From: Lachnospiraceae bacterium
GTDB lineage: Bacteria > Bacillota > Clostridia > Lachnospirales > Lachnospiraceae
Reading direction: 5' to 3'
Length of the DNA stretch: 64,000 nt
Assembly: GCA_017434885.1 (NCBI GenBank)
Contig: JAFSGE010000035.1
Span: 1 to 64,000, forward strand
Shown: one piece after another, positions 9,466-26,969 of the stretch
Position numbering within the stretch: the first letter of the stretch is position 1
Layout of the letters: each line of letters starts with the position of its first letter
Position numbers and translations under genes: made by a program
The notes under the pieces: model-generated
The model's database searches: none
What the model was told of the DNA's origin: nothing
The model's input: only the letters and a program-made list of their open reading frames with translations

Positions 9466-10305
9466 ATGATAAAAATTTTCGTAGATTCTTCAGCCGATTA
9501 TGAAACAGCGGAGTTGAAAGAGCGGCAGCTCCATCTGATTCCACTTTCTGTTACCATGAACGGAAAGACCTATGCAGACGGTGTTGATCTGAAAAAAAAT
9601 GAATTTTTTGAGTTGCTGATAAGCAGTGAAGAGTTTCCCAAAACTTCCCAGCCCTCTCCTCAGGATTTTTTATCCGTTTTTGAGGATGCCAAGAAAAACA
9701 AAGACCAAATCATCTGCATTTTGTTATCTTCTGCATTAAGCGGCACTTACCAGACTGCGTTACTTGCCAGAAATATGGTAGACTACGAAGAAATTTATAT
9801 TATAGACTCCCGTTCTGCAACCTATCCAATCCGAATCATGACCGACTATGCCTGTATGCTGGCAAAGCAGGGTCTTATCGCAAAGGAAATTGCAGATAAA
9901 GTCAATGAATTAAAGCCCAGAGTCAAATTACTTGCGGTTTTGGACACATTAGAATATTTAAGCAAGGGGGGCCGTATCCCCAAATCCGTAGCTGCCATCG
10001 GTGAAATCGCCCGGATTAAACCGGTTATCACTCTGACAACTGACGGCGAGGTTGGCGTACTTGCCAAATGCATCGGCAAAAACAAAGCAATGTCTCATAT
10101 CATGAAGGACTTATCTTCCATGAAAGTAGACCCTGCATTTCCCTGTACCACCATTTTCAGTTATGGAACAGAAAACTGCGAAGCATTTGAGGAAAGGCTT
10201 TCCGAAAACGGTTATGCTATCACGGAACGTATGCAAATCGGTGCTGCTATCGGTTCCCACATTGGTCCACGTGCTTATGGTATCGTTTTCGTGGAACAAG
10301 AATAA
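9466..10305 (+). CDS. DegV family (FakB-like) fatty-acid-binding protein
   Basis: A 279-residue DegV protein. The family binds long-chain fatty acids, and FakB members present them to the FakA kinase for phospholipid synthesis. Visible hallmarks are the N-terminal VDSSADY, the TSQPS motif near residue 66, the SSALSGTYQTA stretch and IDSRSAT. The length is normal. The ATG at 9466 has AAAGGAAAGGAA upstream and a well-spaced promoter. It is monocistronic, with a terminator just beyond. No fakA partner is in the window. The family is certain; the bound lipid and any FakB role are inferred. Confidence 0.88.
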   Translation: MIKIFVDSSADYETAELKERQLHLIPLSVTMNGKTYADGVDLKKNEFFELLISSEEFPKTSQPSPQDFLSVFEDAKKNKDQIICILLSSALSGTYQTALLARNMVDYEEIYIIDSRSATYPIRIMTDYACMLAKQGLIAKEIADKVNELKPRVKLLAVLDTLEYLSKGGRIPKSVAAIGEIARIKPVITLTTDGEVGVLAKCIGKNKAMSHIMKDLSSMKVDPAFPCTTIFSYGTENCEAFEERLSENGYAITERMQIGAAIGSHIGPRAYGIVFVEQE

Positions 10306-10315
10306 GACAGAACAA

Positions 10316-10356
10316 AATGTACCCGCCAAATTCTTACAAGAATACGCGGGTACATT
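10316..10356. terminator. Bidirectional terminator
   Basis: Perfect 11-base arms AATGTACCCGC (10316-10326) and GCGGGTACATT (10346-10356), with an inner TTCTT/AAGAA pairing, between the convergent DegV and redox-protein genes. Confidence 0.8.
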
Positions 10357-10363
10357 CAATACT

Positions 10364-10825
10364 TTATTCCTCTTTCAACATTTGTTCCACAATTTCTGTA
10401 GCACATTGAATCATTTTCGGGCAGATGCTTTGAAATAAATCCAGTTCTTTTATCTTATCCATATCTTTTGGCTTTGACACATCATATCCCAGTAATTCCC
10501 TACATACAACAGTATCATTTTTTTCAATAAAACGATTCATAAATTCTTCTGCTTTCTTATATGCATTTCCCTTTTCTTGTGGTGCATTCATATGATAATG
10601 ACCATATTTTAATCCCAATACCATCAATGCTCCCGCAACGGCACCGCACATTTCTCCTTTTCTTGCACCACCACCAAATTGTGTCGCAATCTTAAGAGCC
10701 ATTTCCTCAGATATGCCATAATCAGTTGCAAATGTTGTAAAAACAGCTTGTGAGCAATTAAATCCATTTCTAAAATATGCAGCAGCCTTATCTGATTTAT
10801 TTTCTAATCGTATCTCATTAATCAT
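10364..10825 (-). CDS. C_GCAxxG_C_C family (putative redox) protein
   Basis: A 153-residue small helical protein of the C_GCAxxG_C_C family, thought to be redox or metal related. The motif cysteines are visible in NCSQAVF, GEMCGAVAGALMVLG, a Cys before RELLG, and the C-terminal ICPKMIQCA. The ATG at 10825 has GGAGG nine bases upstream. It overlaps the stop of the preceding MarR gene by eight bases, so the two form a coupled operon, presumably under control of that MarR protein. No signal peptide was seen. The exact reaction is unknown. Confidence 0.82.
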   Translation of the reverse strand: MINEIRLENKSDKAAAYFRNGFNCSQAVFTTFATDYGISEEMALKIATQFGGGARKGEMCGAVAGALMVLGLKYGHYHMNAPQEKGNAYKKAEEFMNRFIEKNDTVVCRELLGYDVSKPKDMDKIKELDLFQSICPKMIQCATEIVEQMLKEE

Positions 10826-11261
10826 ATTCTTTTTCCTCCACTTTTAGGCAAGCCTCGTTATATAATTTCAGTGCTTCTATCACTTGTTCGTGTTTATCCT
10901 TTGGTATTTCTTCAAATACATCTTTAAATTTCAAATACATATCGTGCTCTATCTTTTCAAATCTCTCTTGTCCCTTGGGCAATAAACTCAACGTAACAAA
11001 ACGTCTGTCTTCTTTTGATGTTTTTCTTTCTACAAAACCTGTTTGAACCAGTTCCTCTACCGAACGGCTGACACCACTTTTATCAACGTGAAGAATGTCA
11101 GACAATTCTTTTACCGATATTCCCGGTTTTCTACCAATCTCTACTATCAAAAAACATTGGCTTTTACTGATTCCGCAGCAGCAACAATCTGTATTATTTA
11201 TATTTCCGATATGACATTCCAATTGCCTTGTATACTCACGAAATTGTTTTATTAAATCCAT
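10818..11261 (-). CDS. MarR-family regulator with a cysteine cluster
   Basis: A 147-residue winged-helix MarR repressor. The HTH region runs from about residue 40 to 105 (VKELSDILHVDKSGVSRSVE, then the wing SKEDRRFV). An unusual run of four cysteines (DCCCCGIS, near residues 25-32) plus QC a few residues later sits where the inducer pocket forms and may sense thiol, metal or oxidant stress; this is inference. The ATG at 11261 is chosen because AAGGAGGA lies upstream, and an extra 20 codons to 11321 would cross the promoter. A perfect dyad over the -35 box suggests autoregulation. The redox-protein gene overlaps its 3' end. Confidence 0.88.
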   Translation of the reverse strand: MDLIKQFREYTRQLECHIGNINNTDCCCCGISKSQCFLIVEIGRKPGISVKELSDILHVDKSGVSRSVEELVQTGFVERKTSKEDRRFVTLSLLPKGQERFEKIEHDMYLKFKDVFEEIPKDKHEQVIEALKLYNEACLKVEEKEYD

Positions 11262-11292
11262 ATTTCCGCATCCTCCTTCTTTACACTTATTC

Positions 11293-11321
11293 ATTATATC
11301 TGCAATAGTTGCTTTTGTCAA
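11293..11321 (-). promoter_or_regulatory. Consensus SigA promoter of the MarR operon
   Basis: Minus strand TTGACA (11316-11321), 17-base spacer, TATAAT (11293-11298): both hexamers are perfect consensus. Such a strong promoter fits a tightly repressed operon. Confidence 0.85.
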
Positions 11322-11326
11322 CTATT
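11304..11326. promoter_or_regulatory. Probable MarR operator over the -35 box
   Basis: Perfect inverted repeat AATAGTTG, seven bases, CAACTATT. It covers the -35 hexamer of the MarR operon, where a bound repressor would block RNA polymerase. Confidence 0.65.
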
Positions 11327-11344
11327 TACTTTTACAACAAAAAA

Positions 11345-11384
11345 AGCAAGATATGTCCTCTAAACAGAGTAAACATACCTTGCT
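11345..11384 (-). terminator. Terminator of the uxuAB operon
   Basis: Arms AGCAAG(AT)ATGT and ACATA(C)CTTGCT with one mismatch, followed on the minus strand by a run of seven T. It lies about 34 bases beyond the uxuB stop. Confidence 0.75.
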
Positions 11385-11417
11385 AATTCAAAAGAATCTT
11401 GTCATGTATTAACACAG

Positions 11418-13028
11418 TTAAACATATTTCTCCAATGTCTTGCAAACGGCGCCGGGACCTGCAATCAGCTCTCTGAAATAGCTGCATACCAATTCAGCCA
11501 TTCCCACTTCGTACAAATCCACACCGAAAATTTTACTGTTGGAAAGAACAGGTTTTAAAATAGTTTCTGCATCAACCGATTCGCCCAGCTTGATGCCTTC
11601 TACATAAGGGCATACTTCTGAAAGCAGCGGGTCAGCGCTTAAAGTAAATGCCTTTCCTTCATCATCCACTGCCATTAAATATCGCAGCCATCCTGCAAAC
11701 ACAAGGGGAATCAGCTTCAATGAAGATACCTCAAGTTTATCGGAAGCAGCATAGGCCTTAATAGCATCGCCAAAACGGATTGCAAGCTTCTGGGAAGTAT
11801 CGGTTGCAATTCTCTGAGGCGCATCCGGCATAAAAGGATTAGGGATACGCACGTTTACTACGGTATCGATAAATTCCTTGGGGTCAATAATACCGGGATT
11901 TACCACAACCGGGAGTCCCTCCGCATAACCAATTCCCTCTACTAACTTCTTTAAAGTTTCATCCTTCATTTCTGCCGAAATCAATTCATATCCCAAAAGA
12001 CAACCGTAAACCGCAAGGGCTGTGTGAAGAGGGTTTAAGCAGGTGCAAACCTTCATTTTCTCCACTTTGTCAACCGTCTCTCTCTCCGTAAACATAATGC
12101 CGCCCGCCTCAAGAGCAGGTCTGCCGTTAGGAAACGCATCCTCTATTACCAAATACTCACATTCCTCTGCATTGACAAAAGGTGCCACATAGGTATTCTT
12201 TGAAGTAACCACCGGCTCCAATTCTTCGATACCGTCATCATTTAAAATCTTTTCAACAGACGCGTCCGGTCTTGGTGTAATTTTGTCTATCATACTCCAA
12301 GGGAATGATACCTTGCTCTTATTATTCACATAAGCAATAAATCCTTCTCTTGCAAGACCTCTTTTCTCCCACTCTTTTGCAAAAGTATCCATTGCTGCAT
12401 AAAGTTTATCACCGTTATGAGAGCAATTATCCATGCTGACCATGGCAATGGGCTTTTCCCCTGCAAGGAAACGGGTATACAGCAAAGAAGCCACCTTGCC
12501 GATATAACTTTCCGGCTTTGCAGGACCACTTGCAAAATCTGCCTGTACTGCTGCAAGTAACTCTCCTTTTCCGTCTATCAGACTATATCCTTTTTCTGTG
12601 ATGGTAAAACTTGCCATCTGCAGAGAATCTGCCTCAAAGATTTCTTTTAAACGTCCGTAATGTGTATCATTTGAAGAGTCCAGTATTAAAGACTCTACCA
12701 CACTCCCTATAACTGTTTTTTCCACATTGCCGTCTGCCTTTAAGGTTGCCAGAACAGATAAGCTGTCATGGGGAAGATACATTTTCTCAATAATTTCATA
12801 ATCATACCCTTCCGCTACAACAAGTCCTGTATCAAGCACACCTTCATTCAACAGATTTTGCACCACATTAGCCTGAAATGCACGGAAAATGTTGCCCGCA
12901 CCGAAATGAATCCAGAAAGGATTTTCTTTTGTTTTCTTTGCAACTGTCTCCCTGTCATATTCGGGGAGCTTATATCCTGCATCAAGCCATGCTTCTTTAT
13001 CCTGTAAACCTGCGTTTGTTAATTTCAT
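11418..13028 (-). CDS. uxuB: Fructuronate reductase / mannitol dehydrogenase family
   Basis: A 536-residue polyol dehydrogenase of the mannitol-dehydrogenase family. The N-terminal Rossmann motif is IHFGAGNIFRAF (about residues 40-51), with a helical C-terminal domain. Next to uxuA it most likely interconverts D-fructuronate and D-mannonate with NAD(P)H, the step before mannonate dehydration in glucuronate catabolism. The ATG at 13028 is preferred because AAGGAGGG lies seven bases upstream. It is the second gene of the leftward pair, 70 bases after uxuA, with its own terminator. Tagaturonate reductase or mannitol dehydrogenase are alternatives, but the context favours UxuB. Confidence 0.87.
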   Translation of the reverse strand: MKLTNAGLQDKEAWLDAGYKLPEYDRETVAKKTKENPFWIHFGAGNIFRAFQANVVQNLLNEGVLDTGLVVAEGYDYEIIEKMYLPHDSLSVLATLKADGNVEKTVIGSVVESLILDSSNDTHYGRLKEIFEADSLQMASFTITEKGYSLIDGKGELLAAVQADFASGPAKPESYIGKVASLLYTRFLAGEKPIAMVSMDNCSHNGDKLYAAMDTFAKEWEKRGLAREGFIAYVNNKSKVSFPWSMIDKITPRPDASVEKILNDDGIEELEPVVTSKNTYVAPFVNAEECEYLVIEDAFPNGRPALEAGGIMFTERETVDKVEKMKVCTCLNPLHTALAVYGCLLGYELISAEMKDETLKKLVEGIGYAEGLPVVVNPGIIDPKEFIDTVVNVRIPNPFMPDAPQRIATDTSQKLAIRFGDAIKAYAASDKLEVSSLKLIPLVFAGWLRYLMAVDDEGKAFTLSADPLLSEVCPYVEGIKLGESVDAETILKPVLSNSKIFGVDLYEVGMAELVCSYFRELIAGPGAVCKTLEKYV

Positions 13029-13098
13029 GTTTGCGCCCTCCTTCGGCATATAGCTTTCCTGCTGTTTTATCCTTTGACGGTTGCCTTCCGTCATACAC

Positions 13099-14163
13099 TT
13101 AGTTACTCTTTTCGATTGCTTCCCAAAGACCGTTCAAATAAGCAGCGCCAAGCGCTCTGTCGTAAAGACCGTATCCGGGCATTGCCACTTCATCCCAAAT
13201 CATACGTCCGTGGTCAGGACGGATAGGTCCGGTAAAACCGATATCGTAAAGCGCTTTCATAATTTCATACATATCAAAGCTGCCGTCAGAAGATAAGTGT
13301 GCTGCTTCTTCAAAATCCGTAGGAGAATTGAACTTTAAGTTTCTTACATGGGCAAAATGGATTCTGCCTTTTAAGGAACGAATCATATCCGGCAAATCAT
13401 TCTCTAAATTAGTTCCGTAAGAACCGGAACAAAATGTAATTCCGTTATGCGGATTATCCACCATGCTCATCATTCTGAGAATGTTCTGCTTGTTAATGAT
13501 GATTCTGGGAAGTCCGAATACACTCCAAGCAGGGTCATCGGGATGAATTGCCATGTTAATATCGTATTTGTCACAAACAGGCATAATCTTCTCAAGAAAG
13601 TATTTCAGATTTTCAAAAAGTTTCTCATCATCCACATCCTTATATGCCTCAAACAATTCCTTTACACGTGCCATACGCTCCGGTTCCCACCCCGGCATTA
13701 CCGTTCCGTTCATATCACCGGAAATAGACTCAAACATTTTTTCAGGGTCAATGGCATCAATAGCTGCCTGATTATAAGCAAGCACGGTAGAACCGTCTTC
13801 GCGTTCTCTTGCCAGTTCACTTCTTGTCCAGTCAAATACAGGCATGAAATTATAGCACACCATATGAATATCTTCTTTTCCGAGGTTCTCCAATGTTTCA
13901 ATGTAATTTGCAATATACTGTTCTCTCTCCGGTGCACCTGTCTTGATTGCATCATGAATATTAACACTTTCAATACCTGCCACATGAAGGCCTGCTGCCT
14001 CAACTTCTTCTTTCATGGCACGGATTCGCTCTCTGCTCCACACCTCTCCCGGTGCTGTGTCATAAAGAGTAGTGATTACCCCCTTTACGCCCGGAATCTG
14101 ACGAATCTGCTTTAATGTAACCGTATCAAACTTAGAACCATACCATCTTAATGTCATCTGCAT
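13099..14163 (-). CDS. uxuA: Mannonate dehydratase
   Basis: A 354-residue UxuA, a TIM-barrel metal enzyme converting D-mannonate to 2-keto-3-deoxygluconate. Typical features are the N-terminus MQMTLRWYG, GVKGVITTLYD, the SVNIHDAIK region, MAIHPDDPAWSVFGLPRI and a C-terminal PDHGR. The ATG at 14163 is chosen for the AGAAGG site about nine bases upstream; the frame extends to 14262 through intergenic sequence. It is first in the leftward uxuA-uxuB operon and divergent from an AraC regulator that probably controls it. Its -10 box (TATAAT, 14212-14217) lacks a good -35, as expected for an activated promoter. kdgK and kdgA are not in the window. Confidence 0.94.
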   Translation of the reverse strand: MQMTLRWYGSKFDTVTLKQIRQIPGVKGVITTLYDTAPGEVWSRERIRAMKEEVEAAGLHVAGIESVNIHDAIKTGAPEREQYIANYIETLENLGKEDIHMVCYNFMPVFDWTRSELAREREDGSTVLAYNQAAIDAIDPEKMFESISGDMNGTVMPGWEPERMARVKELFEAYKDVDDEKLFENLKYFLEKIMPVCDKYDINMAIHPDDPAWSVFGLPRIIINKQNILRMMSMVDNPHNGITFCSGSYGTNLENDLPDMIRSLKGRIHFAHVRNLKFNSPTDFEEAAHLSSDGSFDMYEIMKALYDIGFTGPIRPDHGRMIWDEVAMPGYGLYDRALGAAYLNGLWEAIEKSN

Positions 14164-14211
14164 AACAAAATACCTTCTTTCTATCATTTTCAGATTTGAT
14201 TTACTGTTAAA

Positions 14212-14217
14212 ATTATA
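14212..14217 (-). promoter_or_regulatory. -10 box of uxuAB, weak -35 (activator type)
   Basis: A perfect TATAAT on the minus strand, 49 bases before the uxuA ATG. At 16-18 bases spacing only sequences such as TGGTTT are found for -35. A dyad CAAAAG-N5-CTTTTG (14265-14281) farther upstream is a candidate site for the divergent AraC protein. Confidence 0.45.
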
Positions 14218-14359
14218 GTTGACCCCATACAGAAAAACCATTGATGCATTTGTTGTATACATTGCAAAAGTTGCGCTTTTGTGTTATTAATATGTTAAAT
14301 GCAATATGTAAGATATCATTAGATACACCTTAAAAATACCACATTGTCAGGAGATTTCC

Positions 14360-15247
14360 ATGCACAAAAAATTACAAACCGGCTTCAGTACAAGACAATA
14401 CATGCTTTCCAAGGACTTTGAGCTTTATTATTATCACGATACTGTCCTGCGCAAGGTGGCAACACATACCCATGATTACTATGAATTCTATTTCTTTTTG
14501 GAAGGGAATGTCAGTATTCAGATTGATAAAGAACTCTATGATGTTTCCTACGGAGACATCCTTATTATGCCTCCGGGCATCTCCCACCGTCCCATTATCC
14601 ATAATGCGGATGTGCCCTACCGCCGTTTTGTCTTTTGGATTAGTCAGGAATTTTGCAGCCATCTGCTGAGCTTATCCCCCGACTACGGATATCTGATGCA
14701 GCTTGTACAGACACAGAAAAAGTATCTGTTCCATAATGACCGCATCACCTTCCATTCCATACAGTCAAGACTGATTACCTTACTGGAAGAAATGCAGGGA
14801 AACCGCTTTGGAAAGGCTGCCAATATTTCGCTTTGTGTCAATGACCTGATTTTACATGTAAACAGAGTCATTTATGAGCGTTTTCATCCTGTTTCCGTTA
14901 AGGAAACCACCTCCCTATACGAAAATATCTGTAACTTTATTGAAACCCATATAGAAGAGGACTTATCATTAGAACGTCTCGCGGGAGAATTTTTTGTAAG
15001 TAAATATTATATTGCCCACCTTTTTAAAGAAAATCTGGGACTATCCATTCACCAATACATCACCAAAAAAAGACTGGCGTATTGCCGCCAGTCTATCCTT
15101 AGTGATAATAGTATTACCAAAACATATGCTTCCTACGGATTCGGAGATTACTCCAGCTTTTACCGCGCCTTCAAAAAAGAATACGGAATTTCACCAAAGG
15201 ATTTCAGAGATATGAGTTTTATTGATGAAACATCAGAAGCCTGGTAA
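14360..15247 (+). CDS. AraC-family regulator (cupin sensor)
   Basis: A 295-residue AraC/XylS regulator. The N-terminal cupin-like sensor has the characteristic HTHDYYEFYFFLEG (about residues 36-49) and GDILIMPPGISH; the C-terminal double HTH spans about 190-290 (LERLAGEFFVSKYYIAHLFK, then YGISPKDFR). The ATG at 14360 follows CAGGAG at seven bases. It is divergent from uxuAB, about 196 bases away, and probably activates that operon in response to a uronate-derived sugar. Uronate operons are more often governed by GntR or LacI proteins. Confidence 0.85.
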   Translation: MHKKLQTGFSTRQYMLSKDFELYYYHDTVLRKVATHTHDYYEFYFFLEGNVSIQIDKELYDVSYGDILIMPPGISHRPIIHNADVPYRRFVFWISQEFCSHLLSLSPDYGYLMQLVQTQKKYLFHNDRITFHSIQSRLITLLEEMQGNRFGKAANISLCVNDLILHVNRVIYERFHPVSVKETTSLYENICNFIETHIEEDLSLERLAGEFFVSKYYIAHLFKENLGLSIHQYITKKRLAYCRQSILSDNSITKTYASYGFGDYSSFYRAFKKEYGISPKDFRDMSFIDETSEAW

Positions 15248-15272
15248 CATCCGGCTCCGACATCCGGCACAG

Positions 15273-16784
15273 TTATGTCTGCTTTACCGGCTCATATGTC
15301 TGAAAAAAAATATTCTGTTCAATGACATACACATCATGTAAATCATCCTTGCGGACAGCCAAAAAATCTTTTTCCCTGCCAAGCATATATTTTTCTTTGT
15401 CCCAGGCAGTAAACACTTTTACCCTGTGGTCAAGCGCCCTGACATAGACAAGACTTTCTCCCGTTGCCACACATGCCTTTGCATAAGGAACCAGCGAAAT
15501 ATTGATGCCCTCTGCGGCATCCTTTACCGTAGGCGCGTATTCTCCTTCAAAGGTATAGGCCGTCTCAAGAACCCGGTATGTCCGCTCAAACTTTTCCTTT
15601 TTGATTGGATATACTTCTCCCTGTATTCCTATCATAATATAAATATCTGTGGATACTTCGATGTCTAAATCGCCCTCTAACGTACGAACCGTGATTTTTG
15701 TTCCCACCTTAAACACTTCTGCCGCTTTTACAAAACCAACAGGAATATTTTTCTTTCTGCACAGCTGCATTTTAGTTAAGTCTGCCTCGTAATCCTCGGC
15801 ATACAAAATACGGCTGCTCTCAAAATACCGGTCCATACGTTGTCTCAGGAATGTTTTTATATCAGCTTCATTTTTCTCTGCTTCCTGTGTTTTTACAAGC
15901 AGTTCTGCTTTTATAAAACCACCGGCTTTCACAAGATGACCGCCTCCCGAACCGATTCCTTCCGTCAGATATGCCGCCAGTTCACTTGCTTTCACCTCTT
16001 TAATACAGCTGCGGACAGACAGCTTTATACCGAAAGGCAAAACACTGTACACAAGGCAGGTATCCACCATATCTACCTCAAGCATCATATCGCTGATCAT
16101 TCCCAGAATATTCGGGTCACAGGGTTTTGCCTCTGCTACCGCATAACGGTGCTTTTCACTATAATCATAATCAAGAAGTGCCTCGCCGGCAATTTCCAGT
16201 TCTTTCTGTGAAAGATTCATGTTACGGAAACGGATAATTGCTGCATGCTCATAATCGGCATCATCACGCAAATTCTTATCAAGCGGATGGCTGATTTCCG
16301 TAAAATTATTGGTATCCGTCAGCAGTCCGTAGTAAAGTGCCGTTGCCAGCTTCTTATCATCATTTAAGCCGATACCCTCCTGTTGCAACAATTCACGTAC
16401 TAATGTCGCACAGGCACCTAAGTTACTTCTCACCTCACTAAGTCTTGGAAGCTCACGTGCAACCTGGTGATGGTCTATTACCGCAATCTCCTTTGCCGGA
16501 AAATAAGTTACATTTCCCTCTCCATACTGGCAATCCACTGTAAGTAAAAGCTCTGCCTCTTTTAGTTCCTGTACATACTCAATGGGAATTTCCAATTCCT
16601 TTACCATCAAAACCAGATTGGTTTTTTGGATAGGGAAACGCCCTCCGTAAATAAAACGTACCCTTTTTCCCTGCATTTTAAAATAGTGATATATCCCAAA
16701 TCCGCTTGCAAGAGCATCCGCATCCGGATTATCGTGACACTGAATGATAATATTGTCATATTGTAAAAGCTCTTTTAACCGCAT
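15273..16784 (-). CDS. DHH-family phosphoesterase with a two-part C-terminal extension
   Basis: A 503-residue protein. Residues 1-320 are a DHH/DHHA1 phosphoesterase of the NrnA/GdpP class: metal motifs HDNPDAD (17-23), Asp84, DHH (104-106), Asp157 (LLTDTNNF) and the substrate-binding GSGGGH (278-283). Relatives degrade nanoRNA, pAp or cyclic dinucleotides. Residues from about 345 to 503 are an extension that seems to hold two related modules, each ending in a Phe-x-x-Thr-Tyr pattern (FERTY at 399-403, FFQTY at 493-497), the first preceded by QGEVYPI. The ATG at 16784 has AAAGG upstream. It lies 15 bases behind the TIR-WD40 gene and is certainly co-transcribed with it, suggesting nucleotide signal turnover as a partner task (inference). 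Confidence 0.85.
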   Translation of the reverse strand: MRLKELLQYDNIIIQCHDNPDADALASGFGIYHYFKMQGKRVRFIYGGRFPIQKTNLVLMVKELEIPIEYVQELKEAELLLTVDCQYGEGNVTYFPAKEIAVIDHHQVARELPRLSEVRSNLGACATLVRELLQQEGIGLNDDKKLATALYYGLLTDTNNFTEISHPLDKNLRDDADYEHAAIIRFRNMNLSQKELEIAGEALLDYDYSEKHRYAVAEAKPCDPNILGMISDMMLEVDMVDTCLVYSVLPFGIKLSVRSCIKEVKASELAAYLTEGIGSGGGHLVKAGGFIKAELLVKTQEAEKNEADIKTFLRQRMDRYFESSRILYAEDYEADLTKMQLCRKKNIPVGFVKAAEVFKVGTKITVRTLEGDLDIEVSTDIYIMIGIQGEVYPIKKEKFERTYRVLETAYTFEGEYAPTVKDAAEGINISLVPYAKACVATGESLVYVRALDHRVKVFTAWDKEKYMLGREKDFLAVRKDDLHDVYVIEQNIFFQTYEPVKQT

Positions 16785-16799
16785 AATTGCACCTTTCTT

Positions 16800-19700
16800 T
16801 TATTCTACATGGAATCTTACTCTCTCTGCATCGGAAAGCCGCTCATCACCGAACAGGGAAATGGCTTCTTCCTGTAACATTTCTAATGTCATATAGGGGA
16901 ATTGATAAACTGTCTTGTAAGAGCTGCTGTAAATCTTACCGCTCTCCGGTAAATACGCCTTACCACCTTCTACCTGCGCAATTCTCTCATAATCCTCCGC
17001 ATTTACAAGTACCATGTCTGCTGTTGTAATCAAACTTAAGGTTCCGGTCTCATCATCTGCAATTACTTTTTCTATATGATAATACTGCCCTGTGGCAATA
17101 TAACAAAATGCCTGCTCTTCCAAATCATAAACACGCAGATAGTAATCGTCTCCCTGCATCATGATTTGTTTTCCGTCATCACTGAATCTCACAAATCTGT
17201 GATTCATCCCCGTAAAAGGAATTTCTGCCACAGTCTGCATTTCCTGTAAATCCAATACGCGGAGCATACCGTCACTGCAACTGACTGCAAGCAGTCTTCC
17301 GCCCGCTCCGTCTGCAAAGGCATTTTGCACATCCAGTCCCCGCAAAATCTGATATTCTTCCGATGTTACAGGCGTCATTTTTCCGCTTTCTGTATCAAGA
17401 ATACAAAGTCCGTCCTCCTGCGTATTACAATAAGCTTTCTTGCCGTCATCAGAAAGCACTGCCCCGTATAGGTACTGCTCCACTTCCTTTTGAACCAGAA
17501 CTTCCCGTTTCTTCAAATCAACTACAAAATACTCGTTTCCCTTACATCCGATAAGTAGGGAGTTGTCTGCATTCACATCAAATTCGGCCGCATGGGAGCC
17601 CTCTGTCAGTTCCATAATTTCTATTTCTCCGGTTGCAACCTGATAAAAGATAAGACTTCCGTCTGTACTGATTATCATATAAGTCTCATCGTCCACAAAT
17701 CCGGATAACTCTACATATCTCTCCTCATCCAGCCACTGATTTATCTTACTGTTATCATCTGTGCGGTAAAAGCTGATATTGCCGGGTATGTCAAACGCAG
17801 CCACCTCCACGGCATAATAAGTCTCTTCGGGGGATACCTGCATATCCATAACCGTATCATCACACTCATCTACTGTCACCACTTCCGCCGCTTTAGGATA
17901 CTTCATCACTGTCAGCGCCGGAGATTCATAGGAGCGTACCACCAGCATGCCGTTTCGGATGAAAGCCTGTTTGATAAGTTTTCCTGTTTCTATGGTTGCA
18001 GAATCATATCTGGTGCCGCTTTCCATACTTACCACTGCAACTTCCCCGTTATTCTGGGCAAGGTATCCGTAGCTTGCCTGACTTGCGGCCATGAAATCAA
18101 TAATACCGCCGTCCACTGCAACTTCCGCTACTCTCTCACCGGTTTCATTCTTCCATGTATATGCCATGTTATCCACAGAAACCATTACATCATCGTGAAC
18201 CTCTCCTGCATCATCCTGATAATATCTGCAGATAATCTTGGCAGAAACGGCATTTGTTCCCACTTTCTGATAGGTAAAGCTATCTTCCCACAATGTCTCA
18301 TAATTTTCCCAGTCTATCTTCTCAAGCACCTTGATATCTGTCAGTTCGCTACTTTCAAAGTTACCGGAAAAAGGGGAACTTGCCGTAAAAAGGTAGTTTT
18401 CTTTATCAAAATCCATATCTGCGATAAAACTGTTTGCCGTATGTACGGTTGTCACCGTCTTGGTCTCAAAATCATAAATGCTGACAAAGCCATTGGGAAC
18501 TGTTTCCTCTGTGTTTAAATGTGATACGGCAAATTTTGTGTCATCGTCACTAAATACTCTGGAGGATGTATAGGAATGTGGCAGGCTGTTCACCATTCTT
18601 CCCACTTCTGCTCCGCTTACAGCATCATAAAAGAACACAAAATCATTACTGATACAGGCAACCGTCTGCGTATTTTCATTGTACTCACAATAAATCACAT
18701 TCTCATACTCTGCCTGCCATATCTCTTCTCCGTCATAGCTTACGCTTCTGATTTGGTCCTCTTCACATATGATAATTTTCTCTTCACAAAGCAAAGCTTT
18801 TACCGGTTTGCTCAAATATCCGTTTTCATCTGCCTTTGGTCTTATCTGTGCAAGCTTTCTTCCATTTTCCAAATCCCACACATAAACACTTCCACCCCTG
18901 TCAACAGAAACCACTTTTGTTCCATCCTCATGGAAGCTGAAATCATCCACCGGCAAATCATGCGCCAAAACGCGGTCCATCTTCATCTTTGCCCCGGTAT
19001 CATACACATAAAGAGCTTCACTTAAGGCATACTGCGCTTCCGCCACATAAGGTCTGTCATTTTCCTTAGAAGGAAGTGCTTCTAAGGCTACTAGAACAGC
19101 GGCACGCCTGTCTCCGTCCTCCAGCAGGCTTAAAGAAGTGTCCGCCAGATATTTTGACTGATTTTTCTGCTTGCCTTCATAATTCTGCTGAATCAATGCA
19201 GCATTGTAAGCATTATAAGCACCAAACGCAACGGCAAATGCTGCCACAACTGCCGCCGCTGCTGCCATACGCTTAATTTTCCGCTCTCTGTGGCGCTGCT
19301 TCAAATCATCATAGCTGCATCCCAAAAGAGGAGCTGCAAGACGCATAATTTCTGTCTTCATTTTGCGTCCTATTTCACCTTTGGAAGCACCGCGCACATC
19401 AGCTGCAAGCGGTTCCACCGGATTTCCCTCATCATCCGTCAAAAGCTGCGGAGGAAACGATTCATCCGGTTCTCCTTCGATAAGCACAGCAAGCACCTTC
19501 TCTCTTCCGTGCATAGTGATAAACGTATCAATTTCCTTCTGCACCCAGTAGGACTTCGGTGTTCTGGGTGAGCAAATGACAATCAGATACTCTGATTCTG
19601 AAAGCGCAGTTTCTATATTGTCACCTAAGTCACTTCCGATGGGCAGCTCCTCCTGGTCCCGGAACACCCTCTTAATACTCTTTTTTCCTGTTTTCTTTGC

Positions 19701-19805
19701 TACCGCACGCGGCACCTGAAAAGTCTCTAATGACTTGTGAACCTTTTTTGCTATGTACAGGTCTAAATCCGCATGCCGGTAACTGATAAATGCATCGTAT
19801 TTCAT
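16800..19805 (-). CDS. TIR domain - membrane helix - WD40-like propeller protein
   Basis: A 1001-residue protein. Residues 1-170 form a TIR domain starting YDAFISYRHAD, with the conserved SYWVQKEID whose Glu91 fits the NAD-cleaving glutamate of enzymatic TIRs. A basic stretch (RHRERKIKR, 171-179) precedes one membrane helix (180-199). About 800 residues follow with WD40/beta-propeller repeats such as VYVWDLENG, LRVLDLQEM and LRVYDLEEQ. By the positive-inside rule the TIR is cytoplasmic and the propeller outside, a receptor-like layout. The ATG at 19805 follows AAAGG at about eight bases. It is transcribed with the DHH phosphoesterase. A role in NAD-based signalling or defence is inference; the architecture is visible directly. 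Confidence 0.88.
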   Translation of the reverse strand: MKYDAFISYRHADLDLYIAKKVHKSLETFQVPRAVAKKTGKKSIKRVFRDQEELPIGSDLGDNIETALSESEYLIVICSPRTPKSYWVQKEIDTFITMHGREKVLAVLIEGEPDESFPPQLLTDDEGNPVEPLAADVRGASKGEIGRKMKTEIMRLAAPLLGCSYDDLKQRHRERKIKRMAAAAAVVAAFAVAFGAYNAYNAALIQQNYEGKQKNQSKYLADTSLSLLEDGDRRAAVLVALEALPSKENDRPYVAEAQYALSEALYVYDTGAKMKMDRVLAHDLPVDDFSFHEDGTKVVSVDRGGSVYVWDLENGRKLAQIRPKADENGYLSKPVKALLCEEKIIICEEDQIRSVSYDGEEIWQAEYENVIYCEYNENTQTVACISNDFVFFYDAVSGAEVGRMVNSLPHSYTSSRVFSDDDTKFAVSHLNTEETVPNGFVSIYDFETKTVTTVHTANSFIADMDFDKENYLFTASSPFSGNFESSELTDIKVLEKIDWENYETLWEDSFTYQKVGTNAVSAKIICRYYQDDAGEVHDDVMVSVDNMAYTWKNETGERVAEVAVDGGIIDFMAASQASYGYLAQNNGEVAVVSMESGTRYDSATIETGKLIKQAFIRNGMLVVRSYESPALTVMKYPKAAEVVTVDECDDTVMDMQVSPEETYYAVEVAAFDIPGNISFYRTDDNSKINQWLDEERYVELSGFVDDETYMIISTDGSLIFYQVATGEIEIMELTEGSHAAEFDVNADNSLLIGCKGNEYFVVDLKKREVLVQKEVEQYLYGAVLSDDGKKAYCNTQEDGLCILDTESGKMTPVTSEEYQILRGLDVQNAFADGAGGRLLAVSCSDGMLRVLDLQEMQTVAEIPFTGMNHRFVRFSDDGKQIMMQGDDYYLRVYDLEEQAFCYIATGQYYHIEKVIADDETGTLSLITTADMVLVNAEDYERIAQVEGGKAYLPESGKIYSSSYKTVYQFPYMTLEMLQEEAISLFGDERLSDAERVRFHVE

Positions 19806-19976
19806 ATGTTTAACCTTTTCATTTTTATTTTTGTGCTATCTGTTTATTTTTCTTAATTTCTGCCACCTTTTGCAAGTTTTATAACCGTGAATCTATAATA
19901 CCACAGATATCTCAAAGTCGCTACGTTAAAGATGATTTCTCATCCCTGTAAGCCAAACTTAAATCTGATAAAAAAG

Positions 19977-20005
19977 TTGCGCAATTATCATCCCTGTGCT
20001 ATTAT
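19977..20005 (+). promoter_or_regulatory. SigA-type promoter of the Rpn-like gene
   Basis: TTGCGC (19977-19982), 17-base spacer, TATTAT (20000-20005). It predicts a leader of about 128 bases that includes the hairpin at 20101-20127. Confidence 0.6.
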
Positions 20006-20100
20006 CATATCAAAGCATACATGTTTCTGTTTATTCTGAAATCTTTTAGTTTATCTAAAATTCATGAAAATCTATGCTTTGAATTCCAAATTAATGTAAA

Positions 20101-20127
20101 GCAGGAGATTTTCATAAGCGCTCCTGC
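20101..20127 (+). promoter_or_regulatory. Leader hairpin just before the Rpn ribosome site
   Basis: Perfect seven-base arms GCAGGAG (20101-20107) and CTCCTGC (20121-20127). The left arm carries its own GGAG, and the true AAAGGAGG site follows directly, so folding could affect translation. Confidence 0.4.
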
Positions 20128-20139
20128 AAAGGAGGGTAA

Positions 20140-21084
20140 ATGAATAAAAGAAATCAATTTACTCCTGTAAACCGGGAGTACAAGGACACTATGTTCCGCA
20201 TGATTTTCCGGGACAAAAAAGAACTGCTGAGTCTGTACAATGCCGTAAATCATTCTCACTATACCGATGCTGAAATGTTACAAGTCGTTACTTTAGAGAA
20301 TGCTATTTACATGAACATGAAAAACGACCTTGCATTTTTAGTGGACTGCCATTTGTATCTTTATGAACATCAGTCCACTTACAATCCCAACATTCCGCTT
20401 CGGAATCTGTTCTATGTAGCAAAGGAATACGAAAAGTTGGTAACCAATGACACGCTCTATTCATCCAGACTCATCAAAATACCTGCTCCCCACTTTATTG
20501 TATTCTACAACGGAGTACGTACACAGCCGGAAATGAGGGAAATCAAACTGTCGGATGCCTATTATTCCGCAGAAGACGCCCCGGCACTCGAACTCAAAGT
20601 AACTATGTTAAATATTAATTCCGGCAACAATGCAGAGCTTCTTGAGCAATGCGAAACCTTAAGACAGTACATGCTCTATGTGGAACGGGTACGCAAGTAT
20701 GCAAAAGAGCCGGGTTTCAATCTGCAAAAAGCGGTGGAACAGGCAGTAAACGAATGCATTGAAGAAGGCATCTTATCAGATTTTTTAAAGAGAAACAAAG
20801 CGGAGGCAATCAACATGAGTATTTTTGAATACAATGAAGCAGAAGAAAAAGAAAAAATACGCAAAGCTGAATACAGTGTCGGTTGGGACGACGGATGGGA
20901 TGACGGACAATTGTTTACAATAATTAATTTGGCACACAAAAAATATCTCAAAGGCTGTACTATCTGCGAAACAGCCGATATGCTTGAGACAGAACCGGAA
21001 TTAATCAAAAAAATATATGAAACAATTGAAACAACTGAAACAGACGATTTGCAGGAAATTTTCCAAAAATTTACTGCTTCATAA
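20140..21084 (+). CDS. Rpn-family PD-(D/E)XK nuclease/transposase-like protein
   Basis: A 314-residue protein of the Rpn (recombination-promoting nuclease, formerly YhgA transposase-like) group. The nuclease core is recognisable in NREYKDTMFRMIF near the N-terminus and FLVDCHLYLYEHQS (about residues 65-78), where Asp and the E-x-Q pair match the PD-(D/E)XK active site. The C-terminal part (about 200-314) is acidic and helical, with a DDGWDDG repeat. The ATG at 20140 follows AAAGGAGG. It stands alone with its own promoter and terminator. Such genes are often multicopy in Clostridia and are thought to act in DNA recombination; no inverted repeats of a transposon flank it. Confidence 0.75.
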   Translation: MNKRNQFTPVNREYKDTMFRMIFRDKKELLSLYNAVNHSHYTDAEMLQVVTLENAIYMNMKNDLAFLVDCHLYLYEHQSTYNPNIPLRNLFYVAKEYEKLVTNDTLYSSRLIKIPAPHFIVFYNGVRTQPEMREIKLSDAYYSAEDAPALELKVTMLNINSGNNAELLEQCETLRQYMLYVERVRKYAKEPGFNLQKAVEQAVNECIEEGILSDFLKRNKAEAINMSIFEYNEAEEKEKIRKAEYSVGWDDGWDDGQLFTIINLAHKKYLKGCTICETADMLETEPELIKKIYETIETTETDDLQEIFQKFTAS

Positions 21085-21105
21085 CAACTTTCCATAAACC
21101 TAAAA

Positions 21106-21146
21106 AGCAGAACCTTATAGGCTTTAAAAGCCTGATAGGTTCTGCT
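21106..21146. terminator. Bidirectional terminator
   Basis: Arms AGCAGAACCTTATAGGCTTT and AAAAGCCTGATAGGTTCTGC pair around the centre, with six T on the plus side and A-rich sequence on the other, between the convergent Rpn and polC genes. Confidence 0.8.
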
Positions 21147-21151
21147 CTTTT

Positions 21152-24100
21152 TTATACAAAATCAAACAAACTAATCTGATTGGATTCCGGCAGATTTCCT
21201 AAAATTCCCAACCCGTCCATCAAATCAACTACCGTCTTGGATACTTTAGTTCTCGCCCTGAAATCATCTTTGGAAAGGAAAGGACCGTCCTTGGCTGCTT
21301 CTACAATAGCATCTGCCGCCTTCTCTCCCAATCCGTCAATGCTGTTAAAGGAAGGCATCAGCTTACCGTCCACAATCTGAAAATTACGGGAATGTGCCGT
21401 AAACAGGTCAATAGGCGTGAACTCAAAGCCTCTGGCGTACATTTCCTGCACACTCTTCATATCCTTGTAGGAATCCTGCTCCTTCTTGGAAAGTGTGTCC
21501 ATTCGCCGCTTATAGTCTGCCATCACATTTTCCAAATGTTGCTGCCCGCGGCACATGATTTCATAAGAAAATGCAGAGGCACGGATAGAAAAGTACGCCG
21601 CATAATATGCAAGCGGATAATTGATTTTACAGTAAGCAATTCTCCACGCCATCATTACATAAGCCGCCGCATGTGCCTTAGGGAACATGTATTTAATCTT
21701 CTTGCAGGACCCAATATACCAGTCTGGTACGTCCTTTTCCTTCATGGCTTCTTCCCACTCCGGCTTTAGCCCTTTTCCCTTACGCACACTCTCCATGATG
21801 GTAAAAGACAACGCACTGTCCACTCCCTTATTAATCAGATAAATCATAATATCGTCACGACAACAAATACATTCGGAAATAGTTGCCGTTCCCTCTGCAA
21901 TTAAAGTCTGCGCATTACCAAGCCATACATCCGTACCATGACCAAGTCCTGAAATACGAATTAAATCAGAAAGACTCTGTGGTTTGGTATCAAGCAGCAT
22001 CTGAATAACAAAGTCCGTACCGAATTCCGGCACGCCAAGAGAACCTACCGGACAACCGCTAATCTGGTCGGGGGTAATTCCCAGTGCGGAGGTATTCTGG
22101 AACAGGGACATGACCTGCTTATCGTCTAGCGGAATGGTGGTGGGGTCAATGCCCGTCAAATCCTGCAACATACGAATCATGGTCGGATCGTCGTGTCCGA
22201 GAATATCAAGCTTCAATAAGTTATGGTCAATGGAGTGATAGTCAAAATGAGTAGTGACAATATCCGTTGTCATATCATTGGCAGGGTGCTGTACCGGTGT
22301 AAAAGAGTTAATATCCTCTCCCACGGGAAGCACGATAATACCTCCGGGATGCTGTCCCGTACTTCTGCGGATGCCGGTACATCCAAGAACAATACGGTTA
22401 ATCTCACAGGTACGTTTTCTCCTGCCTCTCTCCTCATAATAATTCTTCACATAACCAAAAGCCGTCTTATCTGCCAAAGTACCGATAGTTCCTGCACGGT
22501 AAGTCTGCCCTGCACCGAAAATTACTTCCGTATATTTATGGGCCTTACTCTGATACTCACCGGAAAAGTTAAGGTCGATATCCGGCTCTTTATCTCCTTT
22601 AAAACCAAGGAAAGTTTCAAAAGGAATGTCAAATCCGTCTTTTACAAGCGGTTTGCCGCAAACGGGACAATTCTTATCCGGAAGGTCACAGCCTGCATTA
22701 CCGGCGGATGCTTTTACCTCCGGAGAATCAAAATCATAGTAACGACAATTAGGACATCTGTAATGAGCGCTCAACGAGTTTACCTCTGTAATTCCCGCCA
22801 TAAACGCCACCAGAGAAGAACCTACGGAGCCACGTGAGCCCACCAGGTATCCGTCCTCTACTGACTTCCATACCAGCTTTTGAGCAATGATATACATTAC
22901 CGCAAATCCGTTGTTGATAATAGAATCCAGTTCTTTTTTCAATCTATCCTCTACAATTTGGGGAAGCTCATCACCGTAAAGTTCATGTGCCTTATTATAG
23001 CAAATGTCCTTTAATGTCTTGTCACTGTCAGGAATCACCGGCGGACATTTATCCGGACGCACCGGTGACATCACATCAATTCTGTCTGCAATTTTGTTGG
23101 TATTGGTAATGACCACCTCTTCTGCCTTGTCACTGCCAAGATATTCAAATTCTTTAAGCATCTCTTCTGTGGTACGAAGATATAGCGGTGCCTGGTCATC
23201 TGCATCCGTAAATCCTTTACCAGCCATAATAATCCGGCGGTATACTTCGTCCTCCGGGTCTAAGAAATGAACGTCACAGGTAGCCACCACAGGCTTATTA
23301 AACTCTTCACCGAGTGATACAATTCTGCGATTAAAGTTTTTGATATCCTCCATATCATTTACCGCAGTCACCTTTTCCGACTCTATCATAAACTGATTGT
23401 TTCCCAAAGGCTGTATTTCCAGATAGTCATAAAAATTCACAATTCTCGCAATTTCTGAATCCGGCTTACCGTCAAGCATTGCCCGGTAAAGCTCACCTGC
23501 CTCGCAGGCGCTTCCCACAATCAAGCCTTCTCTGTGTCTCAGCAACAGGCTCTTGGGCACTCTGGGCCGTTTACTGTAATAGGTCACATGGGATTCGGAT
23601 ACCAAGGTATATAAATTTTCCCTGCCGATATTGTTCTGTGCCAAAATGATGGCATGATAAGTAGGCAAACGCTTGATAATGTCTGGACTGGACGCCCCCT
23701 TCTCGTTCACCTTTGCAAGAGTCTCTACTCCTGCCTCTCTCAGCATAGGAATAAATTTTACAAATATTTCTGCGGTTGCCTCAGCATCATCCACTGCACG
23801 ATGATGGTTCTCCAAGGAAATTCCCAAAGTCTTAGCTACCGCATCTAAGGTATGCTTTGCCTGATTGGGCAACAGGATTCTTGCAATTCCTACAGTATCT
23901 ACATAGGTAAACTCCCTGCGGATTCCCTGACGAAGCGCATTTTCCTTAATAAAACTCATGTCAAAGTTTGCGTTATGCGCCACCAGCACCGCATCACCGC
24001 AAAATTCCAAAAACTGCGGTAAAATTTCCTCTATCTCCGGAGAATCCATTACCATGGAATCATTGATTCCCGTCAGCTTCTCAATTTCAAACGGAATGGG

Positions 24101-25834
24101 TGTCTTGGGATTCACAAAGGTAGAAAAACGGTCAACAATCTCTCCTCCTGATACCTTCACCGCACCGATTTCGATAATACGGTTATTTACAGGTGAAAAT
24201 CCTGTTGTTTCGATATCGAATACAACAAAATCGGAGGCAAAATCCTGCCCCTTATCTCCTGTTACGATTTCCTGCAAATCATCTACCAAATACGCTTCCA
24301 TTCCGTAAATGATTTTGAAGAAATCCTGCTTATCCGGGTTTGCGTCCCCGGCTTCTTTCCGTTTATTTTTTTCCTCTTTCCACAAATCCTCCCACACATG
24401 ATTCGCATCCGGGAAGGACTGTACTACGCCGTGGTCTGTTATTGCAATAGCAGGATGTCCCCATTTATAGGCACGCTTTACAATGTCTTTGGCTTCGGAA
24501 ACGCCGTCCATATCACTCATCTTGGTATGACAGTGAAGTTCCACACGCTTTCTGGCACTATTATCCTGTCTGGACACGGTAAAATCAGGAATCTTTTTTA
24601 CCCCTGTTAAGGAACCGATGGTAAGCTCATTGTCAAACTTATCCACCATGGTGATTCCCTTGATTTTCACAAACGCACCTTTTTTGATACCTGCTGTTAT
24701 TTCTGCAACCTGGTCATTACGTGCAAACATTTTAATAGTCATGGTATCCGTAAAGTCTGTCACATCAAACATCAAAATAGTCTTTTCATTTTTAATTTCC
24801 CTGCTGTCAAAGCTGATAATCTTACCGCGGATTACCACCTCACCGATTTCACCGATGATATCCTCTATGGGCATGGCATCCTCTTCAAAATCCCTTCCGT
24901 AAAGCACATCGGGATTGTCGGAGCGTTTCACGGAACGGTTAAATTCACCCTTCTTAAAATCACCTTTTTTGAACTTGCCTCTGAACTCGCCTTTGGACAC
25001 ACCGGTAGGTGCTGCTGCCTTGATACTCCCCTCTGCTGCCTTTAAAGCGCCGCCCTGCATATTACCCGCCTGCGCACTTCCTGCTGTCAAAGCACCACTG
25101 CTGCCCGGCGCACCTTGCAATGCTTCTCCCTGCGCAGAAGTATCTGTCGCGCCTTTCGTCATTCCTGCCGCATCCGCCATCTCGCCTGCTCCCGGCATAT
25201 TTCCCTGCATACCTTCAGGCTGTGCATCTCCAAATTCTCCGCCGGAAGATGCCCCGAAAACTCTTGCTGTAATCTCAGCCACCTGACGGGCAATTTTAAT
25301 ATCATCTTCAGCTTTATATTTTCCTGTTTTCTTTTCCTTGTACTGCATCTGAATACCTACGGAAAAGCCGCAGCGCTCATTGAGTATCTTTTCCAAGATA
25401 CGGGTAAGCTCACCTGACTTGCTTTTGGCAAGCACAGTATCCTCAACGGTTATTATCAACTCTTTTTCGGAAGGATAGGCAAAATCAGCCCCCTTAAACA
25501 AATTGTATTCCACCGGACTGTATTCACGAAGTTCCAGCAAAATACTGTCTCTGTAGATTTCCAGTAAATTCTGCACCGTGTACTGGGCAGATAAGTGAAA
25601 CCGCTCGTACAGCTTCACTCTCACACTATGTCCTGCAAAAAACTGTTTTTTGATTTCCTCTTCCACCTTAAATATAGTTTCTTTCTGAATCAGATACTCA
25701 CAGGATATGGTAACACGAATGAGGTCTCTGCTTTTTGTCGCAGAAACCTTCTCCACCGTTACCTGTTCAAACAAATCCTGATTCTTTTTATCCAACTTTA
25801 AATTGGGAAATACATCAAAAAACTGCTTTGCCAT
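21152..25834 (-). CDS. polC: DNA polymerase III, PolC-type alpha subunit
   Basis: A 1560-residue Gram-positive replicative polymerase with built-in 3'-5' exonuclease. In order: N-terminal domains (1-195), a Gly/Ala/Met-rich linker (about 195-305), an OB fold (330-415), PHP first part (430-520; VELHCHTKMSDMDG), exonuclease (537-700; FVVFDIETTGF), PHP continuation and polymerase core (PDIDLNFSGEYQ in the palm, and a zinc site YRCPNCRYYDFD with CPVCGKP). It is about 100 residues longer than many PolC proteins, accounted for by the linker. The ATG at 25834 has AGAGG upstream. It is last in the leftward cluster, 17 bases after ispG, and ends at a terminator. Confidence 0.97.
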   Translation of the reverse strand: MAKQFFDVFPNLKLDKKNQDLFEQVTVEKVSATKSRDLIRVTISCEYLIQKETIFKVEEEIKKQFFAGHSVRVKLYERFHLSAQYTVQNLLEIYRDSILLELREYSPVEYNLFKGADFAYPSEKELIITVEDTVLAKSKSGELTRILEKILNERCGFSVGIQMQYKEKKTGKYKAEDDIKIARQVAEITARVFGASSGGEFGDAQPEGMQGNMPGAGEMADAAGMTKGATDTSAQGEALQGAPGSSGALTAGSAQAGNMQGGALKAAEGSIKAAAPTGVSKGEFRGKFKKGDFKKGEFNRSVKRSDNPDVLYGRDFEEDAMPIEDIIGEIGEVVIRGKIISFDSREIKNEKTILMFDVTDFTDTMTIKMFARNDQVAEITAGIKKGAFVKIKGITMVDKFDNELTIGSLTGVKKIPDFTVSRQDNSARKRVELHCHTKMSDMDGVSEAKDIVKRAYKWGHPAIAITDHGVVQSFPDANHVWEDLWKEEKNKRKEAGDANPDKQDFFKIIYGMEAYLVDDLQEIVTGDKGQDFASDFVVFDIETTGFSPVNNRIIEIGAVKVSGGEIVDRFSTFVNPKTPIPFEIEKLTGINDSMVMDSPEIEEILPQFLEFCGDAVLVAHNANFDMSFIKENALRQGIRREFTYVDTVGIARILLPNQAKHTLDAVAKTLGISLENHHRAVDDAEATAEIFVKFIPMLREAGVETLAKVNEKGASSPDIIKRLPTYHAIILAQNNIGRENLYTLVSESHVTYYSKRPRVPKSLLLRHREGLIVGSACEAGELYRAMLDGKPDSEIARIVNFYDYLEIQPLGNNQFMIESEKVTAVNDMEDIKNFNRRIVSLGEEFNKPVVATCDVHFLDPEDEVYRRIIMAGKGFTDADDQAPLYLRTTEEMLKEFEYLGSDKAEEVVITNTNKIADRIDVMSPVRPDKCPPVIPDSDKTLKDICYNKAHELYGDELPQIVEDRLKKELDSIINNGFAVMYIIAQKLVWKSVEDGYLVGSRGSVGSSLVAFMAGITEVNSLSAHYRCPNCRYYDFDSPEVKASAGNAGCDLPDKNCPVCGKPLVKDGFDIPFETFLGFKGDKEPDIDLNFSGEYQSKAHKYTEVIFGAGQTYRAGTIGTLADKTAFGYVKNYYEERGRRKRTCEINRIVLGCTGIRRSTGQHPGGIIVLPVGEDINSFTPVQHPANDMTTDIVTTHFDYHSIDHNLLKLDILGHDDPTMIRMLQDLTGIDPTTIPLDDKQVMSLFQNTSALGITPDQISGCPVGSLGVPEFGTDFVIQMLLDTKPQSLSDLIRISGLGHGTDVWLGNAQTLIAEGTATISECICCRDDIMIYLINKGVDSALSFTIMESVRKGKGLKPEWEEAMKEKDVPDWYIGSCKKIKYMFPKAHAAAYVMMAWRIAYCKINYPLAYYAAYFSIRASAFSYEIMCRGQQHLENVMADYKRRMDTLSKKEQDSYKDMKSVQEMYARGFEFTPIDLFTAHSRNFQIVDGKLMPSFNSIDGLGEKAADAIVEAAKDGPFLSKDDFRARTKVSKTVVDLMDGLGILGNLPESNQISLFDFV

Positions 25835-25851
25835 TTTAAAACCTCTGTTCT

Positions 25852-26907: not shown

Positions 26908-26969
26908 GATTTACCTCCTGTCATGAATTCCTTTTGTACGGTAAGACATTCTTTTATGCCACCTCATTC

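Follow-up and report, generated by a model that had tools for sequence, protein, structure and literature searches.

A transmembrane TIR protein and a long DHH phosphoesterase encoded side by side in Lachnospiraceae: a possible ADP-ribose-type signal and its eraser

What does a membrane protein with a TIR domain have to do with a phosphoesterase whose gene follows its own almost at once? The question is raised by a locus in the window, that is, the whole stretch of 64,000 nucleotides analysed here (positions 1 to 64,000 of contig JAFSGE010000035.1, Lachnospiraceae bacterium assembly GCA_017434885.1; the assembly is 3.1 Mb long and 94.5% complete, and the pair lies on its contig C30). On the minus strand, a gene for a 1001-aa protein made of a TIR domain, a transmembrane helix and a propeller (TIR-TM-propeller, 16800..19805) is found upstream of a gene for a 503-aa DHH/DHHA1 protein (15273..16784). 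An earlier note, made from the sequence of the window, had described these two reading frames as separated by 15 bases, and the ORF list and the sequence agree with it; by eye, a stretch aaaggtg precedes the second ATG.

The first protein opens with its TIR domain (about residues 1-149, 19359..19805), delimited by Pfam TIR_2 and by a profile of our own over residues 2-149. Residues 6-114 match TIR_2 at 4.8e-11 and ThsB_TIR at 1.2e-8. Compared with solved structures, the TIR profile finds 7uxr, a 'TIR domain protein', at 6e-5, followed by plant ROQ1 at 1e-4; we take 7uxr to be AaTIR, a maker of 2'cADPR. Glu91 (codon 19533-19535), placed by alignment of TIR proteins, falls on the W-x-x-x-E glutamate of solved TIR domains, including a glutamate of the ROQ1 domain that is presumably catalytic, and it is invariant in 31 of 31 aligned proteins, hand-picked to span the variety of the 76 found near long DHH genes. 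The protein has, then, the glutamate that characterizes NAD-cleaving TIR enzymes, and cleavage of NAD is predicted from it. A single hydrophobic helix follows, placed by hydropathy and charge count at about residues 177-199 (19209..19268 for residues 180-199). Seven lysine or arginine residues lie in residues 161-181, on the TIR side, versus three in residues 201-225, and by the positive-inside rule this basic excess would put the TIR domain inside and the propeller outside. At least one hydrophobic stretch is present, as judged by a simple rule, in 70 of the 76 TIR neighbours of long DHH genes. Between about residues 260 and 950 (16956..19028) the protein matches WD40 and PQQ-like propeller families of Pfam, and its profile retrieves solved WD40 proteins, 2ymu being the best at 1.6e-24; the region might be long enough for two propellers. 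The parts that the earlier note had recognized (a TIR domain with Glu91, one membrane helix preceded by basic residues, a WD40-like propeller) are thus all recovered by profile, alignment and hydropathy.

The second protein was called a DHH/DHHA1 phosphoesterase with all metal motifs, and it is one by its domains as by its residues. Its DHH domain (residues 11-153, 16326..16754) matches Pfam at 2.8e-14, and its DHHA1 domain (residues 214-294, 15903..16145), which contains a GGGHxxKAGG motif, at 0.0013, below the cut-off. Each of the two domains is matched in all 33 aligned long DHH proteins (E up to 0.05), where H17, P20, D21, D23, D84, D104, H105 and H106, as well as D157, G280-G282 and K286-G289, are invariant. 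A GGGxxxKAGG motif marks the family, being present in 122 of 123 long DHH proteins, while KAGG occurs in none of the 19 short DHH proteins that we used as controls (called 'NrnA-like' by length and likeness only). The window protein itself scores 25.8 bits with the NCBIfam NrnA equivalog, against a cut-off of 350. Among solved structures, a profile of the 33 proteins retrieves relatives of the DHH part such as NrnA, TmPDE and cyclic-dinucleotide phosphodiesterases, together with pyrophosphatases and proteins related to exopolyphosphatases. At two loci the DHH protein is fused to a HAD phosphatase (L142 9983-12220 and L269 4201-6423); by eye, from the translations, shikimate-pathway-like genes follow the fusion in both.

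The earlier note had overlooked a region added at the C-terminus, about residues 305-503, which the short control proteins (321-364 aa) are too short to contain. Residues 350-417 (copy 1 of a module, 15534..15737) match family phrog_419 of PHROGs (1.6e-8), which groups phage proteins of unknown function. With hhalign, three phage proteins align at 97-98% with copy 1 and at 82% with a presumed copy 2 (about residues 432-500, 15285..15491). This second copy is the less sure, because the two copies align with each other at only 59% over 16 columns, and at 5% when forced into a global alignment. The three phage proteins also hit phrog_4159 (E from 3e-8 to 7e-5), whose label, nucleotide pyrophosphohydrolase, may hint at a link with nucleotides. 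A PGDYG domain (PF14083) was considered for the C-terminus and dropped: the Pfam model finds nothing in this genome at E up to 10, and the phage proteins behind the supposed likeness are in phrog_419, with no Pfam match at E<=0.01. Likewise discarded as phage genes were the matches to the C-terminal region on MT836910 and MT836060 (L268 and L269), scaffolds that are filed as phage and hold bacterial-looking metabolic genes; on the former, a TIR gene, DUF6273-type-like by eye, stands directly before the long DHH gene. Yet another arrangement is that of locus L070 (969-5769), where an HTH-like gene (by eye), a TIR gene, a nucleotide cyclase gene and a 342-aa ORF are found in a row; the latter corresponds to the C-terminal part of the DHH protein and has no recognizable DHH domain.

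Do the two genes belong together? We asked this of a family sample of 200 genomes, in which the TIR-TM-propeller protein is found in 25 genomes and a DHH match in 60 (both at E<=1e-30). Full-length long DHH proteins account for 33 matches in 31 genomes, and all 33 neighbourhoods were read; DHH ORFs below 400 aa were dropped, including a contig-edge copy in L073, with a TIR neighbour, and the matches of about 325 aa in G108 and G128. A TIR gene lies within two genes at 17 of the 33 loci. Counted by gene distance, TIR genes take up 15 of 66 positions at distance one, 2 of 64 at distance two, 0 of 61 at distance three and 1 of 250 at distances four to eight (distance one versus four to eight, Fisher p 2e-10). 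Around the short DHH controls of the same sample no TIR gene is seen, be it counted by locus (0 of 19) or by position up to distance eight (0 of 252); 20 of the 32 short matches had been fetched, one of which yielded no ORF of the length required. Named-genome relatives of the DHH gene, mostly labelled Lachnospiraceae, have a TIR gene within three genes at 57 of 77 loci, a figure drawn from the query's nearest kin, some of whose genomes are also in the family sample (3 of 80 loci, where no DHH ORF reached 400 aa, were left out). As a side observation, in L081 (10458-13559, genome G022) one TAG stop splits the TIR-propeller gene into two ORFs, and the adjoining DHH gene is open.

A neighbourhood might of course be inherited without any functional meaning. 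Many of the pairs do come from close kin with one gene order, and in a FastTree phylogeny of 123 long DHH proteins (5 of 128 having been dropped as exact duplicates) the order labels cluster, near kin sharing their orders. Against this, adjacency persists through changes of order and surroundings. The 17 family-sample loci comprise eight in the order DHH-TIR, six in the order TIR-DHH and three convergent pairs, and the tree, 35 of whose 120 inner branches are weakly supported, counts at least 10 order changes among TIR-bearing rows. It also counts at least 23 changes between TIR presence and absence among 115 judged rows (79 with and 36 without TIR; 8 of the 123, near a contig end and without TIR, were left unjudged). 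Other families behave likewise: a long DHH is found at E<=1e-50 in 18 of 291 genomes sampled across the class, and of 13 loci from 12 genomes outside the family, 6 have a TIR gene at distance one. The pairing is therefore more than chance, and adjacency has been re-formed in different gene orders; the empty controls also speak against passive linkage, and we consider it very improbable. Rare adjacency in relatives came first among the findings that were to refute the earlier note, and the search for co-occurrence that it proposed has gone the other way.

Coupling, as that note called it, is nonetheless a tendency rather than a rule. When G089 is added to the 31 genomes above, 23 of the 32 with a long DHH have a TIR match, versus 64 of 168 others (p = 7e-4, uncorrected for kinship). 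In the remaining 9 of the 32, TIR_2 finds nothing at E<=1e-5, and five of these nine are 96-99% complete, so that the enzyme must be used beyond an encoded TIR protein. The genome studied here tells a similar story, with a second long DHH gene (contig C11, locus L099) that adjoins a GGDEF-EAL gene and is without a TIR neighbour: together with the TIR-less genomes, it implies that the DHH protein is not only the antidote to an encoded TIR. We considered GGDEF-EAL genes as regular partners of long DHH genes, and rejected them. They lie near some loci, but partly within one shared neighbourhood and near the controls too. That neighbourhood, with genes for IMP dehydrogenase, glutamyl/glutaminyl-tRNA synthetase and a DUF2225 protein in L099, has its gene clusters also in L065 and L071, and partly in L061 and L087.

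If the DHH gene has a constant partner, this is the TIR domain and not the sensor to which the domain is joined. Among 31 scanned TIR proteins, Pfam identifies Beta-prop_THOC3 in 19, PQQ_2 in 16 and Trypsin_2 in 2 (that of L152 is the one seen in full). A TIR neighbour has DUF6273 in L095 (that of L063 falls in the same protein cluster) and NPCBM in L160, while that of L069 displays four hydrophobic stretches and no further Pfam domain. Sensors that differ, next to a kept Glu91 and kept DHH motifs, point to the product of the TIR domain as what would link the pair.

The partner, too, varies. In the 25 TIR-TM-propeller genomes, a long DHH gene lies within two genes in 15 (counting a contig-edge copy in G089) and not in the other 10. 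In four of these 10 (G028, G058, G088 and G178), none of which has a DHH match at E<=1e-30, the direct neighbour is a gene with a RyR domain, although the Pfam RyR match of G088 and G178, at 5e-4, is below cut-off. The neighbour in G058 (L076) is a channel-like Ion_trans_2-RyR protein, and that in G028 (L077) a free-standing RyR protein of 82 aa, encoded 83 bases upstream of the TIR gene. Of the other six genomes without a DHH neighbour, three (G136, G167 and G183) encode a longer protein whose TIR is internal, with no DHH or RyR gene nearby, G125 and G187 have their long DHH on a contig other than that of the TIR-TM-propeller gene, and the neighbour in G124 is unproved. The G183 protein (L215 5172-8831), of about 1200 aa, has kinase, TIR and WD40-type Pfam matches; in L213 (7104-10961) and L214 (3224-6829) the TIR domain sits at the same internal place as in this kinase-TIR-TM-WD40 protein. 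The 770-aa neighbour in L078 was taken for a RyR protein by eye only and rejected, having no Pfam match and not being found without its own seed.

RyR and DHH genes are not mutually exclusive by genome, as 4 of the 15 genomes with a DHH neighbour (G004, G049, G089 and G160) have a RyR match elsewhere. Such matches exist in 28 of the 200 genomes of the family sample, none being found in the genome studied here, and in L160 RyR, DHH and TIR genes stand in a row. RyR genes adjoin TIR genes in this family at L076 (5759-9083), L077 (8483-8731), L079 (9926-11785), L080 (6986-9046), L222 (4025-5443) and L223 (9770-12532). Several encode hydrophobic helices and one an ion-channel domain; TIR-RyR pairs may be a module of their own. 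According to a preprint, RyR-domain proteins of phages cleave or bind 2'cADPR and 3'cADPR (PMC13232231), a finding that in our view indirectly supports a cyclic ADP-ribose-type product of the TIR domains considered here. With the kept Glu91 and the differing sensors, this alternative partner favours a TIR domain that would act through a small nucleotide.

The reading that we prefer, to which we give a probability of roughly 0.45, is that an outward-facing TIR receptor produces a signal of the ADP-ribose type and the DHH enzyme breaks this signal down by hydrolysis. Outside the membrane would be the sensor, a propeller here and other domains in some relatives, and inside it the TIR domain; a cue at the sensor would make TIR domains assemble and split NAD, yielding an ADP-ribose-type signal, linear or cyclic. 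The cytosolic DHH protein would then hydrolyse this signal at a phosphate bond, keeping its basal level low and ending the response, while the probable task of the modules added at its C-terminus is to bind the ligand or to control enzyme activity. Topology, cleavage of NAD, identity of the signal and, above all, the TIR product as substrate of the DHH enzyme are steps that we infer. The role of an eraser is suggested by solved DHH relatives that are phosphodiesterases, pyrophosphatases or akin to exopolyphosphatases, and by the fusions with HAD phosphatases. DHH enzymes are known to cut dinucleotides, pAp, polyphosphate or PPi; it counts against an eraser that we know of none that cuts cyclic ADP-ribose, and that the usual remover, were the signal plain ADP-ribose, is a Nudix enzyme. 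The nine long-DHH genomes without a TIR_2 match, the second long DHH gene of this genome and the RyR matches in four genomes with a DHH neighbour count against it as well. The earlier note had the propeller sense a cue outside, the TIR domain make a signal or deplete NAD, and the DHH enzyme clear the signal or serve as antidote: its link between TIR and a small nucleotide has gained from conserved Glu91, varied sensors and RyR partners, but the coupling it assumed is not universal.

The same two proteins could work the other way round, the DHH protein being the effector: the TIR signal would bind its C-terminal modules and turn on a nucleotide hydrolase, causing growth arrest or death, much as ThsA answers ThsB in Thoeris. 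This would account nearly as well for the C-terminal modules, which could be a sensor, and for the exchange with RyR domains, since the DHH gene occupies the place of RyR-domain genes and the channel-like protein of L076 looks like a receiver of signals. The C-terminal part encoded without a recognizable DHH domain in L070, beside TIR and nucleotide cyclase genes, fits as well. In the nine genomes without a TIR_2 match, however, such an effector would be useless unless it answered other signals, and we see it as unlikely, albeit worth keeping in mind. More improbable still is a DHH protein that would remove pGpG, pApA and pAp in general, next to a TIR domain that would be a scaffold without NADase activity, both answering the same stress. 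Kinship of the DHH part with NrnA and PDE-type enzymes would agree with it, and so would GGDEF or EAL genes within four genes at 7 of the 33 family-sample loci, two of which are also beside a TIR-TM-propeller gene. This link is weak, as the same genes occur near short-DHH controls (5 of 148 positions up to distance four); a mere scaffold fits poorly with a glutamate kept in every aligned TIR protein, and a general remover with short DHH genes that are without a TIR neighbour at all 19 loci.

How does the pair compare with what is known? It resembles Thoeris as a two-gene module whose second member presumably receives a signal that the TIR protein derives from NAD, and its TIR domain matches the ThsB_TIR model of Pfam at 35.7 bits versus a cut-off of 21.2. 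Yet TIR_2 scores above ThsB_TIR, the PADLOC match to ThsB is at only 0.0067, the domain is followed in the same protein by a membrane helix and a sensor, and the partner is a DHH phosphoesterase instead of ThsA; ThsA does not appear beside the TIR gene among the PADLOC matches listed for the pair and 10 neighbours (for the kinase, the best 25 of 34). With NrnA, GdpP, Pde2 and TmPDE the second protein shares DHH and DHHA1 domains and metal motifs, and it differs from them by its KAGG motif, its extra C-terminal region and its TIR neighbour. The overall plan, with a sensor that would be outside, one helix and a TIR domain inside, is that of animal Toll-like receptors; here the TIR domain is N-terminal, a propeller replaces the LRR and the catalytic-type glutamate is kept, so that the resemblance is one of plan and not of kinship of the whole. 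As to the phage protein RyDEP, the preprint describes a glycosidase of the ribose-ribose bond (PMC13232231); both belong to protein families tied to TIR signals, but the DHH protein is bacterial, of another family, and would act on phosphate bonds. The literature that we searched, most subscription journals being outside its scope, contains no description of a TIR and DHH pair, in keeping with the remark of the earlier note that it knew of no such described system; in the main text of PMC7159879 and PMC7075850 the term 'DHH' does not occur.

A role in defence, the other possibility raised at the outset, finds no direct support around the pair. Its nearest genes are metabolic or housekeeping ones, matching UxuA, mannitol dehydrogenase, an AraC-type regulator, PolC and GcpE. 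Where PADLOC matches any of the 10 neighbours, it does so through general folds (MarR-like, the PolC exonuclease part, protein kinase), and no defence island is seen in 9466-28344. The kinase gene (26995-28344), a Ser/Thr protein kinase with two hydrophobic stretches that adjoins the gcpE-like gene, is hit by PADLOC kinase models, which is to be expected of many kinases. At 20140-21084 there is a 314-aa ORF with no Pfam match, which by eye we take to be like the Rpn/YhgA-type nuclease family.

Taken more broadly, gut Clostridia might possess a TIR transmembrane system with interchangeable sensors, one cyclic ADP-ribose-type messenger, and, as interchangeable partners that would read the messenger or end its action, dedicated DHH hydrolases with phage-like ligand modules or RyR proteins, one of them channel-like, a generalization that we advance as a doubtful one. 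According to the preprint, hydrolysis of 2'cADPR or 3'cADPR had not been ascribed to any protein before the phage enzyme (PMC13232231). Should the proposal be true, removal of either molecule by a cellular enzyme would be demonstrated for the first time with the DHH protein, and a bacterial DHH enzyme with this activity would be an off-switch as well as a reagent. RyR domains would then be tied to TIR receptors in cells, and TIR signalling would be an ordinary form of receptor signalling in gut bacteria.
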